In this document: positions 1 through 7,789 of the stretch, piece after piece
How positions within the stretch are numbered: position 1 is the first letter of the stretch
Layout: every line of letters begins with the position of its first letter
Assembly (NCBI RefSeq): GCF_004765795.1
Contig: NZ_SBIV01000001.1
Coordinates: 1-64,000 of the forward strand
DNA length: 64,000 bases
Reading direction: 5' to 3'
Origin: Halorussus marinus
GTDB taxonomy: Archaea > Halobacteriota > Halobacteria > Halobacteriales > Haladaptataceae
Position numbers and translations under genes: made by a program
The notes under the pieces: model-generated
Database searches by the model: none
What the model saw: only the letters and a program-made list of their open reading frames with translations
Told to the model about the DNA's origin: nothing

Positions 1-1445
1 GCGGGCGGTGCGTCTCGCTGATCGCGGAGTACCTCCCGCTCCAGGATGGCGGGTCGACGGTGTTCGACAAGGCGTTCGACGCCGAGGATGTCCTCGTCGA
101 GGACACCGATCCGGGGGAGTTCGACGTTGAACCGTACCGTGAGGTCATCGACGCGGTCGCGAGCCGCGACGACCCGGTGGACGTGCTGGTTGAGTCGGTC
201 GCACCGAGCCATCTCGGCGATCGTCACATCAAGGAGGCGCTGATCTGCCAGCTGGTCGGGGCGAACGCGCCGACGGGCGCCGACGGGAAGGACTACCGCG
301 GGCAGATTCACATGTTCCTGCTGGGTGATCCCGGCGCGGGCAAGACCGACTTCGGGGAGGCGCTGGTGCGGCTGGCGCCGCGTTCGCAGAAGTCGAGCGG
401 GAACGAGGGGACGTCGGCGGCCGGGTTGACGGCGGCGATCACTCGCGACGATTTCTCGGACGCGGAGTTCACGGTGACGGCGGGCGCGATCCCGAAGTGT
501 TCTGGCGGGGCGCTGTTCCTGGACGAACTCGACAGCGCTGGCGACCAGGAGCAGAACGCGCTGTTGGAGGCGATGGAGTCGGGCGTGATCAACATCGAGA
601 AGGCCGGGCAGAAGGCCACACTGGAGGCCGAGACGGCGATCCTCGCGGCGGGCAACCCGTCGGGCGGGCACTTCGATCCGGAGCGGTCGCCCGCGGAGCA
701 GACGAACGTGCTGTCGCCGCTGCTCGACCGGTTCGACCTGATCTTCTGTCCCGAGGAGAAGACCGATCCGGACGCGGTCGAGGCGATCGCGGACCACATC
801 ACCGCTGGTCGTGACGCCGCGCAACGCCGGGAGCTCGACAAGAACGTCCCCGAGTCGGCGGACGCGGTCGAGCCGGAGCTGTCGACCGAGGAACTCCGGG
901 CGTACTTGGCGGCGGCGCGGGAGAAACGGCCGGTGTTCGGGAGCGACGAGGTACGCCAGACGCTCCGGGACTGGTACGTTGAGGTGAAAACGCGGATCGT
1001 CCGCCAGGAGGACGAGGACGGTCGGGAGTATCCGGTGACCCCGCGCGCGGTTGGGGACATCGCGCGGCTGGCCGAGGCGTCGGCGAAGGCGCGGCTCTCA
1101 GACGAGATAGAGATGGTGGATGTCGAGCGGGCGACGCGGTTGAAGGGCCGGTCGTTCGCAGAGTTTGGGCTCGACCCGGGCGTCGAGGTCGTTGCGGACG
1201 ACGAGGACGGTGACGAGGGTGGGCTCGACCTCGCGGGGTCGACGCCGACCGCGACCATCACCGAGGTCGTCGACGATCTCACGCTTCAGGGCGCGGACTA
1301 CGGCGCGCCGCGCGAGCAGGTCGTTGCGCGGACAGTCGAGGCTGAGGACGACCTCGATCGAGAGGACGTTCAGGCGTTAGTTGAGGAGATGCTCGCGGCC
1401 GAGACGCTCGACGAGGTCGCGGACGATCGCATGATCAGCGTGTGA
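1..1445 (+). CDS. mcm: MCM replicative helicase, 5'-truncated by window edge
   Basis: The frame is open from base 3 with no credible start, so the gene begins left of the window; a GTG at 60 is internal. The product is the AAA+ part of an MCM hexameric DNA helicase, which unwinds DNA at the replication fork. Visible motifs in order: Walker A GDPGAGKT, Walker B LFLDELDS, sensor 1 AGNPSGG, arginine finger SPLLDRFDLIF and a sensor 2 segment around TPRAVGDIARLAEAS. A variable acidic linker then leads to a small C-terminal winged-helix-like segment (last ~65 residues). The downstream neighbours are orc, a repressor-like gene and an integrase, so this is an MCM of a mobile replicon rather than the chromosomal copy (inference). 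The N-terminal OB/zinc domain is mostly outside the window. Confidence 0.92.
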   Translation, partial: GRCVSLIAEYLPLQDGGSTVFDKAFDAEDVLVEDTDPGEFDVEPYREVIDAVASRDDPVDVLVESVAPSHLGDRHIKEALICQLVGANAPTGADGKDYRGQIHMFLLGDPGAGKTDFGEALVRLAPRSQKSSGNEGTSAAGLTAAITRDDFSDAEFTVTAGAIPKCSGGALFLDELDSAGDQEQNALLEAMESGVINIEKAGQKATLEAETAILAAGNPSGGHFDPERSPAEQTNVLSPLLDRFDLIFCPEEKTDPDAVEAIADHITAGRDAAQRRELDKNVPESADAVEPELSTEELRAYLAAAREKRPVFGSDEVRQTLRDWYVEVKTRIVRQEDEDGREYPVTPRAVGDIARLAEASAKARLSDEIEMVDVERATRLKGRSFAEFGLDPGVEVVADDEDGDEGGLDLAGSTPTATITEVVDDLTLQGADYGAPREQVVARTVEAEDDLDREDVQALVEEMLAAETLDEVADDRMISV

Positions 1446-1495
1446 CCCGGTTTCGACGCGACCACATGGGGTTGCACATCTATAGAATCCATTGC

Positions 1496-1548
1496 CGAAA
1501 ATTGAACACATCTCTCTGACCTTTGACGACGGACGTGTTCAATTTTCG
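1496..1548. repeat. 14-bp perfect inverted repeat downstream of mcm
   Basis: Left arm CGAAAATTGAACAC (1496-1509) and right arm GTGTTCAATTTTCG (1535-1548) are exact reverse complements separated by 25 bp. The arms are AT-rich in a GC-rich setting and lie between the mcm stop and the TATA box of the next gene. It could be an operator, a replication-protein site or an RNA hairpin; the long spacer favours a protein-binding pair over a terminator. Confidence 0.7.
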
Positions 1549-1608
1549 ACCGCGACCAATTGCATAGACCCTCTTTGTCGCGCCGACCAGGGTGGATCAC
1601 CCACTTCT

Positions 1609-1618
1609 TTTATAAATA
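1609..1618 (+). promoter_or_regulatory. TATA box of the 97-aa gene
   Basis: The sequence TTTATAAATA is a close match to the archaeal TATA consensus. Transcription would start near 1640-1645, giving a short leader of about 30 nt before the ATG at 1672. A small imperfect palindrome (GATTCC-N3-GGAATC, about 1641-1655) sits at the presumed transcription start and could be an operator. Confidence 0.6.
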
Positions 1619-1671
1619 GCGAAGCTTTCAGTTGTTCCAGATTCCCCTGGAATCACGAGGTGTGTTCAAAA

Positions 1672-1965
1672 ATGGCCGACTCATATCGCTGGCGACTGTC
1701 TGGAAACCGAGACCTCCTTTTGGAGGACTTGGAGGATGCAACCGGAGAGAACACCAAAGCAAAGGCACTGGAGCGGGCCGTCCTCGGCTACCTCCGGTTG
1801 ACCGGGCAGAACGCGGTTACCTCTGGCGCAGGCGCGTTTGAGGAACTACTGGCGACCGCCGATGAACGTGGGAGCCTGAATGCAGAGGAAATCGCCGAAA
1901 TCCTTGCGACTGACGAACTCCCGATCGAGTACGAGCCCGCCACTTGGTCTGTCGGCGAAGAGTAA
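1672..1965 (+). CDS. Hypothetical small acidic protein of the integrated element
   Basis: A 97-residue protein with no family that I recognise. It starts MADSYRWRLSG and is predicted largely helical, with a basic/aromatic N-terminus followed by LLLEDLEDATGENTKAKALERAVLGYL, a pattern reminiscent of ribbon-helix-helix-like DNA-binding proteins (strand, helix, short turn, helix). This is only a resemblance. The ATG at 1672 is preferred over an earlier in-frame TTG because the TATA box at 1609 would lie downstream of that TTG. The gene stands alone, converging with the HTH-membrane gene that ends at 1999. A function in regulation or copy control would fit its place between mcm and orc, but nothing in the sequence proves it. 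Confidence 0.7.
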   Translation: MADSYRWRLSGNRDLLLEDLEDATGENTKAKALERAVLGYLRLTGQNAVTSGAGAFEELLATADERGSLNAEEIAEILATDELPIEYEPATWSVGEE

Positions 1966-1998
1966 GAAAACGTTCGGCCACGCGCATTATGCGCGGGA

Positions 1999-2316
1999 TC
2001 AGATGAGGCCCTGGTTCATCGCCCACCTACCAATGATCAGAAGGAGAAACAGGACCATGACTACGTCAAATGTGTCGATTTCGTCGGTATCGAGTACGCT
2101 GTTCCCGGGTTGAGGAGGATTCTTCGCGGTCCCTGCCACAGTCTGTAGTTCTTGGCTGACCTTGCTTTCGCTGACCTTCTGCTCGTACTTCCGGCGGACT
2201 TCGCCGACCCACTCCTCCGAGCAGTCGAGTATCTCGGCGATCTCCTCGTTGGTCATCTCGGGGTTCTCTACCGCGAGCGTGAGAATGTCCTCCTGGAGGT
2301 CGGTCAGTTCAATCAT
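1999..2316 (-). CDS. Membrane-anchored HTH protein
   Basis: A 105-residue protein with two parts. Residues about 1-55 (MIELTDLQEDILTLAVENP... then EEIAEILDCSEEWVGEVRRKYE) form a clear helix-turn-helix of the sigma-70 region 4/LuxR-like kind. After a short linker, the C-terminus has one hydrophobic segment (VVMVLFLLLIIGRWAM) that should anchor it in the membrane. The ATG at 2316 was chosen because GGAGGGC lies about 8 nt upstream; an in-frame TTG eight codons earlier is less likely. It converges with the 97-aa gene and is divergent from orc. A single-pass HTH protein could tether element DNA to the membrane or regulate in response to envelope state; both ideas are inference. Confidence 0.75.
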   Translation of the reverse strand: MIELTDLQEDILTLAVENPEMTNEEIAEILDCSEEWVGEVRRKYEQKVSESKVSQELQTVAGTAKNPPQPGNSVLDTDEIDTFDVVMVLFLLLIIGRWAMNQGLI

Positions 2317-2574
2317 CGTGCCGCCCTCCGACGAACGCAAGATTGACGGGACTGGTAGCTCTCGCTTTCAATGCGGGTGGTTCGGCCACCCTCAAACATG
2401 TCCTTCCGCATACGACCCACCTAGCAGTATTTTGACTTGAATTTTATCTTAGAGGATGTTCATGCACCACTGGAATTATTAGATGAATCCTGAGTTTGGA
2501 CTTCCACCTGAATCGTAGGATAAGTTAATATCTGCGCAGGGATTTATAAGTAAGTCGTTAGTACCGGCCCGTAT
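2317..2574. promoter_or_regulatory. AT-rich divergent region upstream of orc, with TATA box
   Basis: This gene-free stretch separates the membrane HTH gene (minus) and orc (plus). It is clearly more AT-rich than the surrounding DNA. A TATA-like TTTATAAG at 2543-2550 lies about 28 bp before the orc ATG at 2575, so the orc mRNA is probably leaderless. A hairpin GGGTGG-TTCGG-CCACCC lies at 2375-2391. AT-richness next to an initiator gene is also what a replication origin would show, but no repeated boxes were seen on this side. Confidence 0.55.
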
Positions 2575-3582
2575 ATGATCACGGACGCCCGAGCACTTCG
2601 CCAAGATCACGTCCCCCAAGAGCTGCATCATCGGGAAGGGAAAATCGACGAGATCTCGTCTGCCCTCAAGCCCGTATCAAACGACGATCCTGGTGAAGAC
2701 ATCCTGATCCATGGAAAGAGTGGGACTGGCAAAACCACTATCGCGAAGTACGTTCTCGATCATCTCAAGCGCGAAACCCTCGATGTCGAGTGGGGGTACA
2801 CGAATTGCATCTCGAACGCGTCGAAAACCGATATTCTCTACTCGTTGCTCCGAGACACCGACCGAGGCGCGGATCTCCGAAAGGAGGGTACCTCGGCGTC
2901 GACGTTCCTTGATCGTCTCCAAGAGATCGACGGTCAGTTCGTCGCGATCCTCGACGAGGTCGACGTCGTCGACGATATGACTACGCTACTCTCGCTCTAC
3001 GAGCTGTCGAACGTCACGATGGTCCTGATTTGCGTCGACGAGGATCGACTCTTCCGCGACCTCGACATCCGTGTGGACTCTCGGCTCCGGTCGGCCCAGA
3101 AAGTCGAACTCGATCCCTACGACAATGACGAACTCGCCGACATCCTGTGGGGCCGCGCCGAGGCGGGCCTGGAGTTCGGCGCGATCAACGACAAGACCAT
3201 CAACTACATCGCCGACATTGCCGCGGGCGACGCTCGGCTCGCGATCGCGCTGCTCCGGCAGTCCGCACGGTACGTCGAGGACACGGACATCGAGGACCGG
3301 ATTACCGTCGGCGTCGTAAACCGCATCGCCGACGATGCGAAGGCGGACATCGCTACACGGTACGTCGAGAAGCTCTCAACACATCAGCGGATTCTCTACG
3401 AGATCATCGCGGACGCGGGCGAGATTAGCGGTGGCGACCTGCACTCGAAGTACGAGCACCGAGCGACGGAGCCGAAAGGGAAGTCGATGCGCCGGAAGTA
3501 TCTCCAGTCGATGAGCCGCGAGGATCTAATCGAGAAAGAGGGCGAGGGCCGTGGGCGACGGTACCGGCTCATCGATCATTGA
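2575..3582 (+). CDS. orc: Orc1/Cdc6-family replication initiator
   Basis: A 335-residue AAA+ initiator of the archaeal Orc1/Cdc6 family, which binds origin repeats and loads MCM. Motifs: Walker A GKSGTGKTT at about 47-55, Walker B AILDEVD at about 124-130, sensor 1 region LICVDEDRLF near 151, sensor 2 region GDARLAIALLRQSA near 218-231. A C-terminal winged helix follows (about 260-335, with the basic stretch KGKSMRRKYLQSM). At 335 residues it is somewhat shorter than typical chromosomal haloarchaeal Orc proteins, as is common for plasmid and provirus copies. The ATG at 2575 sits about 28 bp after a TATA box. A CGATAAT repeat array starts immediately after the stop codon, the arrangement expected for a cis-acting origin. 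Confidence 0.93.
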   Translation: MITDARALRQDHVPQELHHREGKIDEISSALKPVSNDDPGEDILIHGKSGTGKTTIAKYVLDHLKRETLDVEWGYTNCISNASKTDILYSLLRDTDRGADLRKEGTSASTFLDRLQEIDGQFVAILDEVDVVDDMTTLLSLYELSNVTMVLICVDEDRLFRDLDIRVDSRLRSAQKVELDPYDNDELADILWGRAEAGLEFGAINDKTINYIADIAAGDARLAIALLRQSARYVEDTDIEDRITVGVVNRIADDAKADIATRYVEKLSTHQRILYEIIADAGEISGGDLHSKYEHRATEPKGKSMRRKYLQSMSREDLIEKEGEGRGRRYRLIDH

Positions 3583-3583
3583 T

Positions 3584-3713
3584 TTCCGATAATTCGATAA
3601 TCGACAGAGGGCTGTACTTCCGATAATTTCCGATAATTTCCGACAACGATGATAGAGGCGCTCTTCCCTCCGTGTAGCGGTAAATAGGTCGCTTTCGATT
3701 TACTTCCGATAAT
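3584..3713. repeat. Iteron-like direct repeats (TTCCGATAAT) after orc
   Basis: Four perfect copies of TTCCGATAAT lie at 3584-3593, 3618-3627, 3628-3637 and 3704-3713. A one-base-shorter copy TTCGATAAT is at 3593-3601 and a diverged copy TTCCGACAA is at 3638-3646. Three consecutive units are spaced exactly 10 bp, one helical turn. The last copy lies about 14 bp upstream of the TATA box of the next gene. A further core CGATAAT is at 4335-4341 in the promoter region of the repressor-like gene. They may be Orc-binding origin repeats or operators for an element-encoded regulator; the sequence allows both. Confidence 0.75.
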
Positions 3714-3726
3714 GACCGCCCCAGCG

Positions 3727-3735
3727 CTATATAAC
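3727..3735 (+). promoter_or_regulatory. TATA box giving a leaderless transcript
   Basis: CTATATAAC is centred about 25 bp before the ATG at 3756, so transcription should start at or very near the start codon. A TTCCGATAAT repeat unit (3704-3713) lies just upstream, where a bound protein could block or assist TBP/TFB. Confidence 0.65.
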
Positions 3736-3755
3736 AGTGGTTTCTCGCTTCGCGT

Positions 3756-4019
3756 ATGCCGGTACAAACGACAGACACGGCGACTGTTCGGCTCCCCAAC
3801 GATCGGAAGGCGACCGTCGAGAAAAAGAACACGCGGTCGAGCTACTCGGCGCGGGTCAGCGTCTCGCTTGACCGAGAGTGGGTGTTCGGCGTCGACGACG
3901 ATCGGTACGCCGAGCTGCTCGCGACCTACAACGAGCGCGGCGACCTCGCGACCGTCCCGATCCCCGACTGGATGCCCTACGTTCTGGACGAGATCGGGCT
4001 GGAGGGATTCGACGCGTGA
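3756..4019 (+). CDS. Hypothetical protein of the integrated element
   Basis: An 87-residue protein that I cannot assign to a family. The N-terminal half is strand-rich (TATVRLPNDRKATVEKK...YSARVSVSLDREWVF). The C-terminal half contains RYAELLATYNERGDLATVPIPDWMPYVLDEIGLEGF, which looks helical. No signal peptide, membrane segment or cysteine cluster is present. The start is fixed by the TATA box at 3727, which implies a leaderless mRNA. It converges tail-to-tail with the phiH1-repressor-like gene, with only 5 bp between the stops. Small proteins of this kind are common in haloarchaeal proviruses and integrative plasmids (general knowledge); the role is unknown. Confidence 0.75.
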   Translation: MPVQTTDTATVRLPNDRKATVEKKNTRSSYSARVSVSLDREWVFGVDDDRYAELLATYNERGDLATVPIPDWMPYVLDEIGLEGFDA

Positions 4020-4024
4020 TTTGC

Positions 4025-4288
4025 TTAGCTCTCAACCTCAAGCTCGGTAAATACCCGCTCCCCCTTGAGATACGCTTTCCCTCTATCAGTCAAGACGTAG
4101 ACTCCATTCCCGATGTTCTCCAAAAGGCCGTGGTTTGTGAGCACACGACATCGGTTTCCGACATGTTGAGAACCGTATGGGATTCGTTCATCCGAAGCAA
4201 TCTTCGAGGGAATCAGTGGGCCTTCCTCAGAAATAAGTTCCAGAATCCTATCGTCAAGAAGAATCATCCATCGCGGAGAGACGCGCAT
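4025..4288 (-). CDS. PhiH1-repressor-like winged-helix protein
   Basis: An 87-residue winged-helix DNA-binding protein resembling the repressor-like proteins of haloarchaeal virus phiH and its relatives. It opens MRVSPRWMILLDDRILELISEEGPL and continues with a recognition-helix region (SQHVGNRCRVLTNHGLLENI) and a wing (GNGVYVLTDRGKAYL). The ATG at 4288 is chosen over an upstream in-frame start because rc TATA-like CATATAA (4314-4320) lies about 29 bp before it, predicting a leaderless transcript. It is divergent from the coupled operon 4526-7789, and the intergenic region carries several inverted repeats. By position and family it is the best candidate for the element's lysogeny/maintenance repressor (inference). 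Confidence 0.82.
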   Translation of the reverse strand: MRVSPRWMILLDDRILELISEEGPLIPSKIASDERIPYGSQHVGNRCRVLTNHGLLENIGNGVYVLTDRGKAYLKGERVFTELEVES

Positions 4289-4525
4289 ACTATCGAAGTA
4301 TCGGGCAAGGGTGTTATATGCGGGGTTGAGGATACGATAATAATTTCCCATCCGACTATAGAACCACTTGGGAAAACTATAATACCCCGTAGAATACAAT
4401 CATATCATCACGGAACCGACACGCGGACCCGTCGCTCGCCGATGGGTCCATCTCGAAAACGAAGCGGTCCCCGATGTTGGTGGCATCGGGTCCGCGTTAG
4501 GTCCCGTATCCGTGGTACGGAACCC
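4289..4525. promoter_or_regulatory. Divergent control region with three inverted repeats
   Basis: This region lies between the repressor-like gene (minus) and the coupled operon that runs to the integrase (plus). It contains the repressor TATA box at 4314-4320, a CGATAAT core at 4335-4341, and TTTCCCA-N18-TGGGAAA at 4344-4375. A plus-strand TATA-like ACTATAATA follows around 4376-4384, then CCCGATG-N7-CATCGGG at 4470-4490 and TCCGT-N3-ACGGA at 4509-4521. The AT-rich left part fits promoters; the palindromes fit operators or mRNA hairpins in the leader of the operon. Which protein binds is unknown. Confidence 0.5.
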
Positions 4526-5695
4526 ATGTACGACAATATCTTCCGGGGTCTTGAAAGCCCCGAACGAGACGGCGACGGATCGGAGTTCAACTGTCCTTTC
4601 TGTGGCCGCACAGTGTCGGGTCTCAACTCGGAGGGGCCGGACGCGCACAGCTTCGAACCGTGCGGGTGCTCGACGGGCGAGACGACAGCGCGCGAGCTCG
4701 GCGACAGCAGGCCGCGCGTGATGACCGACGGCGGTGTGGCGCGCGGTCACTCCGAGCCGACTGCGGCGAAGAACTACCCGAACGGCCGGTGCCGTGGGAT
4801 CTCGAAGGCGGCAGGGCGACGGTGCCGGAACTCGGCGGGACACGGTCCGACCGGGTCGCTGTGCGCGACGCACGCACTCGAAAGCTCACCGGTGACCATT
4901 GACAGCGACCCGGAGACGTTGATCCGGGAGGTGTCGGAGACGTTTCCGGCGCGGTGCCGGGCGATCGAGCACGACGGCGACCGCTGCACGACGGGGTGTG
5001 GAGCGACCGACCGGTTCTGCGCGCTCCACGAGACGATCAAGGTGCCTGAGGTGGTCGACCAGCTCGACGCGGGCGAACTCGACGTGGTGCTGATCAAGAA
5101 CGCGCTGTCGGCGGCGCGGGGGAGCGACGGGCGGCGGGCAATGACCGACGGCGGGGAAGAGACCGCCGACCAACTTACGCGGCTTGACTGTCCCAATTGC
5201 GAGGACGCCGTTGATGCACGGTATCTCGGGACTGCCCACACCGACGAACACGACGGCCACATCGTCGGCTGGGAGTGCACCGAGTGCGACACAGAACTTC
5301 AGGAACATGTCGACCGCCGCGGTAGTTCCTTCGACCTCGAAGTAGTTGGCGATGAGTCCAGTGCGGAGGCCGAATCTGACGAGACTCGAACCGATGGCGG
5401 TCTTGACACGCGGAGGCTTCGCGTCGGCCCGGCGCGGACGGTCGCCTACGGTCCTGCCGGAGCTAATTCTGGCGAGTGGGCGCTCCGGTTCACGTCGGAG
5501 GACGGCGAGCGCGTGGTGGTCCGACTCGAGGAGGATTCGATGTACGAGCTCTGGACCGAGGTTCACAACGTGCCGTGGCCGAGCCGTGAGGATTCGCGTC
5601 ACGACCTTCAGCGGGAGATCGTCGCTCGGGCGGAGCGTGCGGACGAGGAGATGCTCCGGGACGTCCTCGATGTCCTCGGTGGTGAGTCGACGTGA
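4526..5695 (+). CDS. Multi-zinc-finger modular protein with repeated MTDGG junctions
   Basis: A 389-residue protein built of several Cys/His modules. Module 1 has CPFCG (about residue 23) and CGC. Module 2 has two tandem copies of a C-x(4,6)-G-x2-C...C-A-x-H motif (CRGISKAAGRRC...CATH and CRAIEHDGDRC...CALH), like the DUF5763-type zinc knuckle. Module 3 is a zinc ribbon (CPNC...CTEC). A final cysteine-free domain starts near RRLRVGPARTVAYGPAG and ends with a helical tail. Each later module is preceded by MTDGG or RTDGG. Two internal ATGs (at 4721 and 5141) lie at these junctions, so internal initiation or a recent fusion of small genes is plausible. It ends overlapping the next start by 4 bp. 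Function unknown; nucleic-acid binding is a guess. Confidence 0.75.
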   Translation: MYDNIFRGLESPERDGDGSEFNCPFCGRTVSGLNSEGPDAHSFEPCGCSTGETTARELGDSRPRVMTDGGVARGHSEPTAAKNYPNGRCRGISKAAGRRCRNSAGHGPTGSLCATHALESSPVTIDSDPETLIREVSETFPARCRAIEHDGDRCTTGCGATDRFCALHETIKVPEVVDQLDAGELDVVLIKNALSAARGSDGRRAMTDGGEETADQLTRLDCPNCEDAVDARYLGTAHTDEHDGHIVGWECTECDTELQEHVDRRGSSFDLEVVGDESSAEAESDETRTDGGLDTRRLRVGPARTVAYGPAGANSGEWALRFTSEDGERVVVRLEEDSMYELWTEVHNVPWPSREDSRHDLQREIVARAERADEEMLRDVLDVLGGEST

Positions 5696-5895
5696 GTTCG
5701 ACGCGGCCAACGGGCGACCCGCGGATGACGGTCGACCGCGTCGAGGCGTGCGACGACTGCGAAGGCGAGATGCCGCACTCGGTGACGATCGAGATGCGGG
5801 CGGAGGGCGCTTCGATATTCTCGCGCGAGCCGTATCGGGTGGCTGAGTGTCTGGAGTGCGGGTGCGAAACGACATGGAGGATGAACAATGCCTGA
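5692..5895 (+). CDS. Small zinc beta-ribbon protein
   Basis: A 67-residue protein with CDDC near residue 20 and CLECGC near residue 54, two cysteine pairs about 30 residues apart, as in a zinc ribbon. The stretch SREPYRVAECLECG and the ending RMNNA match a pattern I know from small haloarchaeal zinc-ribbon proteins found on chromosomes and viruses. It starts with GTG inside the stop of the previous gene (GTGA, 4-bp overlap), so it is probably translated by termination-reinitiation. An internal ATG at codon 12 is an alternative start. Exact role unknown. Confidence 0.72.
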   Translation: MSSTRPTGDPRMTVDRVEACDDCEGEMPHSVTIEMRAEGASIFSREPYRVAECLECGCETTWRMNNA

Positions 5896-6184
5896 ATCTA
5901 TCGACCAGGACGACAGCGACGGCGACGATCAGATCATCGAAGGCGAGACGGCGACGATCACGGTCCGGCGGATGGGACCGCTCGCATCCCGCGAGTACGA
6001 GATCGAGCTCGACGGTGGGCTACCGCTCGGGACGATCAAGCAGGAAGCCCGTGAGAAGGCTCACGAGGACGGCCTCGACGTGTTCCAAGTCACGCAGGTC
6101 AACGAGAAGATGCTGCGCCAGATTGGCGGCGGGTTCTACGACACCCAGCCCGAGGACCAAGGGCCGGGAGGTGAGTCGGCGTGA
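5888..6184 (+). CDS. Hypothetical acidic protein in integrase operon
   Basis: A 98-residue protein of unknown family. The N-terminal 20 residues are very acidic and probably disordered (QDDSDGDDQIIEGE). A compact part follows with strands (TATITVRRMG...YEIELDGG) and a helix (LGTIKQEAREKAHEDG), ending in a proline/glycine-rich tail. No cysteines or membrane segment. Its ATG lies 8 bp inside the end of the preceding zinc-ribbon gene, and its own end overlaps the next gene by 4 bp, so it is a coupled member of the operon that ends with the integrase. Confidence 0.7.
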   Translation: MPESIDQDDSDGDDQIIEGETATITVRRMGPLASREYEIELDGGLPLGTIKQEAREKAHEDGLDVFQVTQVNEKMLRQIGGGFYDTQPEDQGPGGESA

Positions 6185-6762
6185 CGCTTGACTGGCCTGC
6201 GGGATTCGATCGGACGCCGTCGGTGGAGCGCGAGCGGAACCACAGCTTTCAGGCGACGCTCGGTCAGACGACGGAAGACCTCGCGACCGAGATGGAGCGC
6301 CTCGATCCCGACGACTGGCGAGCGGAGATCGGGAACCAGCACACCAAGTCGAACGGGCTCCCGCTGCACAATGCGAACCCGGACGATCCCGGCTTCGTCC
6401 TGCGGTGGCGCATGGACGGCGAGGAGTTCGCGGTCGCCTGCGACGAGTCGCCGCGACTGCGAGATAACGTTCGGACGGTCTATCTGTGGGTTCACGAGAC
6501 GCGGATGCGGAACCAGCGGACAGTTCAGACCGGTGAGGACGAGTTTGCGGCGGCTCGGCTGCCGTCGGGCGATTCCGAGGCCGACGCGGTCGTGGCTCGC
6601 GAACCGCTCCACGAGGTCCTCGACGTCGCGCCGGACGCTGACGAGGCGGTCGTCGAGGCTGCGGCGCGCCAGCTGAAGAAGAAGCACCACCCGGATGCGG
6701 GTGGGGACGAATCGCGGTTCAAGCAGGTTGTCGACGCGGAGGAGGCGATGCTCGGTGAGTGA
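6181..6762 (+). CDS. J-domain (DnaJ-like) protein
   Basis: A 193-residue protein with a C-terminal J domain (about residues 140-193) carrying the HPD tripeptide in KKKHHPDAGGDESRF followed by a helix ending AEEAML. J domains stimulate the ATPase of DnaK/Hsp70. The N-terminal 140 residues (FQATLGQTTEDLATEMERLDPDDWRAEIG..., then FVLRWRMDGEEFAVACDE) are unrelated to cellular DnaJ, and there is no G/F region or zinc domain, so this is a specialised J protein. Proteins with this layout occur in haloarchaeal mobile elements (recognised by pattern). It starts inside the stop of the previous gene and overlaps the integrase start by 8 bp, implying coupled synthesis. Recruiting host DnaK for replication or integration complexes is inference. 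Confidence 0.82.
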   Translation: MTLDWPAGFDRTPSVERERNHSFQATLGQTTEDLATEMERLDPDDWRAEIGNQHTKSNGLPLHNANPDDPGFVLRWRMDGEEFAVACDESPRLRDNVRTVYLWVHETRMRNQRTVQTGEDEFAAARLPSGDSEADAVVAREPLHEVLDVAPDADEAVVEAAARQLKKKHHPDAGGDESRFKQVVDAEEAMLGE

Positions 6763-7789
6763 AGACCTGGAACCGCTCCCGCCGGCGCAGGCGGTGAACT
6801 TGTACCTGAACCACCGCGAGCCGGAACTGTCGGAGAAGTCGGTGGAGAACCAGCGCTACCGGCTGGACGCGTTCATCGCATTCTGCCAAGAGGAGCACAT
6901 CGAGAACATGAACGAGTTGACCGGCCGCGATCTCCACCGGTACCGTGTCTGGCGTCGGAACGGAGAAGGTGACGGGTACGACGACGATGGCGTTTCGAAG
7001 ACGACGCTTCGGACGAATCTCGCTACGCTCCGCGTCTTCTTGGAGTTCTGCGCGGGGATTGACGCGGTCGAGCAGGGGATGCGCGAGCGCGTTCTTCTCC
7101 CAGAGCTCGACCCCGAGGAGGAAGCGAAGGAGGAGAGAGTGTCCGAGGACCGCGCGGAAGCGATCCTCGAACACGTTAACCGATTCCACTACGCGAGCCG
7201 CGACCACGTGATCCTCGCGCTGCTGTGGCACACGGGCATCCGTCTGGGAAGCCTGCGCGCGTTCGACGTGGACGACTTCGACCCGGACTCCCCCTGCCTC
7301 GAACTCCGTCATCGTCCGGAGTCGGGAACGCCGTTGAAGAACGGGCAGGCCGCGAACCGGACGATCGCGGTCGGCGAGCACTACGCCGAGGTACTCCAGA
7401 ATTACATCGCGCATAACCGCCACGATGTGACCGACGAGGACGGCCGCGAGCCACTGATCACGAGCAGTCAGGGCCGACTTACGGAGACCCCGATCCGCCG
7501 GACGGTGTACCAGTGGACGCGGCCGTGCATGGTCGCGGACTGTCCGCACGACGAGGACCCGGAGGAGTGTGTGTACATGATCCGCGACCGCGCGAGCCAG
7601 TGTCCTTCGTCGCGGTCACCTCACGGTATCCGACGCGGCGCGATCACGAAGCATCTCCGCGACGGCACCCCCGAAGAGATCGTCACGGATCGATGCAACG
7701 TGAGCAGTGACGTTCTCGACCAGCACTACGATCAGCGAACGGAACGCGAGAAAATGGAGCTCCGTCGCGAGTTCCTCGAAGACGCATGA
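6755..7789 (+). CDS. Tyrosine recombinase / integrase
   Basis: A 344-residue XerC/D-type site-specific recombinase. Residues 1-130 form the SAM-like core-binding domain. The catalytic domain shows Arg163 (HTGIRLGS), a beta-hairpin Lys near 195, HGIRR (His290/Arg293) and the nucleophile Tyr325 (LDQHYDQ). The second histidine position near 313-315 reads RCN, so it is not canonical. A cysteine-bearing insert (C258, C263, C272, C283) precedes the HxxR box and may bind zinc. The start is taken as GTG at 6755, overlapping the J-domain gene by 8 bp and just after its GGTGA. It is the last gene of the element on this side, the usual place for an integrase next to its attachment site. Confidence 0.92.
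   Translation: MSEDLEPLPPAQAVNLYLNHREPELSEKSVENQRYRLDAFIAFCQEEHIENMNELTGRDLHRYRVWRRNGEGDGYDDDGVSKTTLRTNLATLRVFLEFCAGIDAVEQGMRERVLLPELDPEEEAKEERVSEDRAEAILEHVNRFHYASRDHVILALLWHTGIRLGSLRAFDVDDFDPDSPCLELRHRPESGTPLKNGQAANRTIAVGEHYAEVLQNYIAHNRHDVTDEDGREPLITSSQGRLTETPIRRTVYQWTRPCMVADCPHDEDPEECVYMIRDRASQCPSSRSPHGIRRGAITKHLRDGTPEEIVTDRCNVSSDVLDQHYDQRTEREKMELRREFLEDA

Follow-up and report, generated by a model that had tools for sequence, protein, structure and literature searches.

The direct-repeat array that follows the orc gene in this 64,000-nucleotide stretch of Halorussus marinus DNA, all of which was analysed and is called the window here, very probably comprises binding sites through which the adjacent Orc1/Cdc6-type protein activates the orf7 promoter in a lysogeny switch of the SNJ2 type. 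This reading draws on the array itself, its conservation and fixed position relative to the orf7 promoter, the way it follows orf7 from locus to locus, and the covariation of its bases with the Orc winged-helix domain. Haloarchaeal mobile elements often carry Orc1/Cdc6 genes, which annotations usually describe as replication initiators; for one large family of these proteins, the probable site of action is a single viral promoter.

The element and its genes

The gene order orc-orf7-wHTH-integrase in the window is that of gp8-gp7-gp4-integrase in SNJ2 and, judged by homology, the window is an additional member of the known SNJ2-type orf8-orf7-orf4-int module. The principal genes are:

1-1445 (60-1445 and upstream): MCM-like helicase ORF, N-terminus missing, open to the contig edge
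2575-3582, + strand: Orc1/Cdc6-type AAA+ protein of 335 aa, SNJ2 Orf8 homolog (Pfam Cdc6_lid and AAA; PDB Cdc6/Orc matches)
3756-4019, + strand: 87-aa SNJ2 Orf7 homolog, proposed antirepressor (40% over 53 aa to SNJ2 gp7)
4025-4288, - strand: convergent winged-helix (wHTH) repressor, SNJ2 Orf4 homolog (35% identity, E 5e-10)
6695-7789, + strand: tyrosine integrase, SNJ2 type (48% over 347 aa, E 5e-114)

SNJ2 is the closest named virus for the window Orc (51% identity to SNJ2 Orc1/Cdc6), whose Walker A and B motifs are intact (GKSGTGKTT and ILDEVD), with core residues invariant in the Orc alignment. Orf7 is 48% identical to the Orf7 from a second element of the same genome. The repressor was taken to start at the Met matching Met1 of SNJ2 gp4 in the alignment, and the integrase is presumed to be the final target of the switch. 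The MCM-like gene lies 1.1 kb from the orc gene; further ORFs encode a zinc-ribbon-like and a DnaJ-domain protein, the latter (6181-6762) running into the start of the integrase ORF. Because the window begins at a contig edge, one side of the element is missing; among the ten ORFs of 60-7789, no spike protein or NTPase structural gene was recognised.

The repeat array

Scanning the window gave four perfect copies of TTCCGATAAT and one variant, TTCCGACAAC, within 3584-3713. They are listed with the neighbouring elements:

3584-3593, + strand: repeat R1, TTCCGATAAT (exact match)
3593-3614, + strand: TTCGATAATCGACAGAGGGCTG, overlapping a second conserved element of consensus TAATCGCCAGACGGCG (locus comparison)
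3618-3627, + strand: repeat R2, TTCCGATAAT (exact match)
3628-3637, + strand: repeat R3, TTCCGATAAT (exact match)
3638-3647, + strand: variant repeat TTCCGACAAC, keeping the 10-bp register 3618/3628/3638
3704-3713, + strand: repeat R4, TTCCGATAAT, promoter-proximal (exact match)
3728-3734, + strand: TATA-like element TATATAA of the orf7 promoter (sequence)

The initial annotation, made from the sequence alone, had described four perfect copies beginning 1 bp after the orc stop, three copies one helical turn apart and one copy immediately upstream of a TATA box. Each of these descriptions agrees with the scan: the stop codon occupies 3580-3582, the perfect copies start at 3584, 3618, 3628 and 3704, and R4 precedes TATATAA, its 9-mer ending 43 bp ahead of the orf7 ATG at 3756. 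A sigma-70 promoter scan was set aside as irrelevant for archaea. Of the two variant copies also claimed, TTCCGACAAC stands, while TTCGATAAT at 3593-3601 overlaps the separate TAATCGCCAGACGGCG element and need not be a degenerate repeat, because that element also accompanies differing repeats (in L036, L038, L076, L103 and L152). The TTCGATAATCGACAGAGGGCTG stretch includes most of a dyad, ACAG-AGGG-CTGT, which ends at 3615. This TAATCGCCAGACGGCG-like dyad (3596-3615) lies between R1 and R2, which are spaced 34 bp apart, and is conserved across many array loci independently of the repeat sequence.

Allowing at most one mismatch, TTCCGATAAT has five matches in the 64-kb window (0.88 expected), and at least five were reached in 0 of 100 shuffles; together with the shuffle test across loci described below, this rules out a chance origin of the array. 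A genome-wide count had been proposed as a check on the CGATAAT core, which proved not to be rare (134 occurrences in 3.76 Mb). The core by itself is nothing special, and its clustering is the informative part: the full 10-mer occurs six times in the genome, four of them in the array. A further core had been placed at 4335 in the repressor promoter. It is present (9-mer 4332-4340) but weak, scoring 9.4 bits against 18.4 for true copies and ranking 10 of about 128,000 positions, with no counterpart in those parts of the SNJ2 and LSV-48N genomes examined; as a second operator it was set aside.

Conservation of the array in related haloarchaeal loci

A profile of the small ORF (Orf7) matched in 88 of 394 haloarchaeal genomes; related-locus searches of genome contigs and viral contigs yielded no useful relatives. 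A significant direct-repeat array (p ≤ 1/40 against dinucleotide shuffles) lies upstream of the orf7 homolog in 45 of 49 haloarchaeal orc-orf7 loci; no clear array was seen in L080 and L106. The repeat differs from locus to locus and includes TTCCGATAA, TTTCGATAT, TTCCGTTCR, TTCCGCCCA, TTCCGGCCA, TTTTGCCCA and TTTCGGACA, among others. All four forward copies in SNJ2, and all three in the Haloferax phage LSV-48N, fall within one array in the sequence examined.

About 16 loci carry 0.6 to 3.9 kb of cargo between orc and orf7, and there the array adjoins orf7; it is absent from the DNA after orc, save for one-copy remnants in L077 and L103. The array thus keeps with orf7 and not with orc, and the unit is array, promoter and orf7. 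In 34 of 40 loci the last repeat ends either 43 or 45 bp short of the orf7 start, and a TATA-like element lies in between; rigid spacing upstream of BRE/TATA is typical of an archaeal activator site. This position and the homology of the SNJ2 module support the placing of the array in a lysogeny control region, as the initial annotation had also suggested.

Instead of activating orf7, the Orc might repress from the array or use it to autoregulate its own region, and in adjacent-type loci the array does touch the 3' end of orc. This is very unlikely, since R4 occupies the position used by archaeal activators, upstream of BRE/TATA, without overlapping the TATA box or the start, and since no array was found within the 200 bp upstream of orc in the loci surveyed.

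Several loci depart from the common layout. In L088 and L163 the repeats ahead of orf7 run on the opposite strand. More distant Orc relatives in L104, L106 and L151 have repeats upstream of orf7 that are unrelated to the family motif (AAGTGGCA in L104 and L106, GTTGGTTAA in L151). The second orc-array-orf7 module of the present genome (L070, G000:C6:280500-284500) has the motif TTTCGTTCA and the wing GATRG. An apparent CRISPR array (repeat CTTCAATCCCTCAAGGGTTCGTCTGGAAC) lies directly 3' of the stop of an orc relative in L098 and L013, and tandem repeats whose unit contains CACTGAACCACTCTAAAACAACTCTCTCTCAGTACCGTTTACTCAAT follow orc in L028; no orf7 lies within the stretches fetched for these three loci.

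The array as a candidate replication origin

The initial annotation had also offered the array as a compact origin bound by the adjacent Orc. At such an origin, the Orc would load a helicase. The neighbouring Orc with its intact AAA+ motifs and the MCM-like gene 1.1 kb away would suit such a role, as would the few haloarchaeal orc genes known to have downstream ORBs (PMC3528665). The reading is nevertheless very unlikely and was not upheld by the comparison of loci. The array tracks orf7 rather than orc in the cargo-separated loci, its distance from the orf7 start codon is fixed, and the flanks fetched for the other orc loci contain no MCM gene. In haloarchaeal origins the ORBs are inverted, carry G-strings and mostly lie upstream of orc (PMC3528665). 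The repeats here are direct, and inverted ORBs with a G-string around an AT-rich element are absent, there being no G-run of four or more in 3583-3755. In SNJ2, a plasmid without orf4-orf10, and hence without orc and the equivalent array, replicates autonomously; the replicon uses Rep (ORF19), and its origin is a hairpin located downstream of the Rep gene orf19 (PMC13107129). In this MCM-bearing element, the site could conceivably serve replication as well.

Orc residues that probably read the array

Each base of the motif was scanned against the variable columns of the Orc (315) and of Orf7 (74) across 53 loci, with motif registers set by eye; L104, L106 and L151 were left out of the scoring on account of their unrelated repeats. 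Two segments of the winged-helix domain are relevant:

3475-3513, + strand: Orc residues 301-313, putative recognition helix (covariation, structure alignments)
3541-3564, + strand: Orc residues 323-330 (GEGRGRRY), putative wing (covariation, structure alignments)

Both were placed by alignment to 1FNN and 1W5S and from general knowledge of Orc winged helices; an AlphaFold model of the window Orc alone (pLDDT 37) was of no use for placing residues.

Orc residue 325 gives the best account of base 3 (score 0.79, next 0.18), and residue 307 that of bases 4 and 5 (0.68, next 0.19, and 0.50, next 0.21, respectively). Base 6 covaries with residue 304, and the best Orc columns for bases 8 and 9 are 308 and 301. 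The pairings can be stated as simple rules. Where residue 325 is Gly, base 3 is C, and where it is Thr, Lys or Ser, base 3 is T, in 52 of 53 loci, L082 being the exception; Arg or Lys at 307 goes with C4 in all 53, and Arg304 with G6 in 52 of 53. Six loci examined after the wing rule had been noted (L148, L150, L152, L157, L163 and L165) all obey it.

Independent changes number about eight for residue 325 (on a tree built from just the AAA+ domain), about four for 307 and four to five for 304. Simulated traits matched the observed agreement in 0 of 4000 runs on each of the AAA+, full-length and winged-helix trees. When the loci were thinned to 80% identity, residues 325, 307 and 304 still agreed in 29/30, 30/30 and 29/30 cases. 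The covariation strongly supports the proposal of the initial annotation that the adjacent Orc binds the array, and we infer this putative contact with high confidence.

The position of the array within the orf7 promoter and the weak CGATAAT core at 4332-4340 in the repressor promoter might suggest an operator, either for Orf7 regulating its own gene or for the convergent wHTH repressor. Such a role is highly improbable. The covariation argument concerns Orf7: bases 3-5 covary with none of its residues. L034 and L101, moreover, have unlike repeats beside Orf7 proteins that are 93.5% identical and DNA downstream of orf7 that is 88% identical. The best Orf7 columns for bases 3-5 score only 0.11 to 0.12, the level of permuted labels, and Orf7 was rejected as the reader of these bases. 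At bases 6, 8 and 9 the best Orf7 columns come near the best Orc columns, so that Orc and Orf7 separate cleanly only at bases 3-5.

The residue-base code, in which residues 325, 307 and 304 pair with bases 3, 4 and 6, respectively, appears to be new, and it is testable through point mutation. If the wing contacts base 3, Gly325 to Thr would shift preference from TTCCGATAAT to TTTCGATAAT; if the code for residue 304 is correct, S304R would shift it from TTCCGATAAT to TTCCGGTAAT. DNA specificity in the Orc family is hard to study, and a set of about 50 natural variants, each with its matching sites, opens the question to direct tests.

A proposed lysogeny switch

In SNJ2, Orf8 (Orc1/Cdc6) is reportedly activated upon DNA damage and induces orf7, the product of which is said to counteract Orf4, the repressor of the integrase. 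By analogy, the window Orc, presumably triggered by DNA damage, would bind R1-R4 via its winged-helix domain. R4, directly upstream of the TATA box, would recruit or stabilise basal factors and so turn on orf7; Orf7 would then relieve repression by the convergent wHTH protein, allowing integrase to be made and the element to excise. SNJ2 is the source for the trigger by damage, for the choice of activation over repression and for the parts assigned to Orf7 and Orf4. Mitomycin triggers excision of SNJ2, and orf4-orf10 form its lysogeny regulatory region (PMC13107129).

Possible exchange of orc specificity ends and arrays

Two closely related loci, L097 (the L034 locus) and L101, differ sharply over a single interval. 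Their DNA is 85% identical over orc codons 1-258, and 90% identical from 13 bp beyond R4 through orf7 and 88% further downstream; identity is 63% in the winged-helix end of orc (49% past codon 311) and 45% in the array. Their repeats are TTTCGCCCA (wing GSTRG) and TTCCGATGA (wing GNGRG), despite the near-identity of their Orf7 proteins. L101 and L103 have winged helices that are 82% identical and AAA+ domains that are only 65% identical. From these alignments, the specificity end of orc and the array appear to move together as a single block, although rapid divergence of both in place could also have produced the difference.

An evolvable specificity cassette, in which the orc 3' end and the array are exchanged jointly and each provirus has its own recognition code, is an even prospect. 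If it exists, switches of unlike specificity could work in one cell, for example those of the two modules of this genome.

Comparison with known systems

The switch of SNJ2 (Betapleolipovirus) has the same parts: an Orc1/Cdc6 gene, a small orf7 downstream on the same strand, a wHTH gene on the opposite strand, a related integrase and, at the equivalent place, an array of the same kind (TTCCGTTCR x4). It differs in repeat sequence and in the spacing of R1 and R2, which is 9 bp in SNJ2 and 34 bp, with the dyad, in the window. Unlike SNJ2, the window has no hicAB between orf7 and the repressor; it does have an MCM gene, and pleolipovirus structural genes are absent from the portion of the element seen. 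LSV-48N (PP151251) shares the arrangement of orc, orf7 and regulator, with an array ahead of orf7; in this phage, however, 1.4 kb separate orc from orf7, the array lies beside orf7, the motif is ATTCGTTCA and the wing has Thr325.

Origins adjacent to haloarchaeal orc/cdc6 genes likewise have repeats beside an orc gene that are specific to the linked Orc family (PMC3528665), whereas the repeats of the window array are direct, 9-10 bp long, lack a G-string and are not inverted, and the array is tied to a downstream promoter. A parallel in function may be Orc1-2 of Saccharolobus islandicus, a non-initiator DNA-damage regulator that binds ANTTTC in promoters (PMC9738581). Both are Orc1-family proteins for which promoter binding involves, or is predicted to involve, wing and helix residues and a short asymmetric site containing TTTC. 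Orc1-2 is a cellular global regulator of many promoters, whereas the window Orc would be a viral and local one, acting through one multi-site array.
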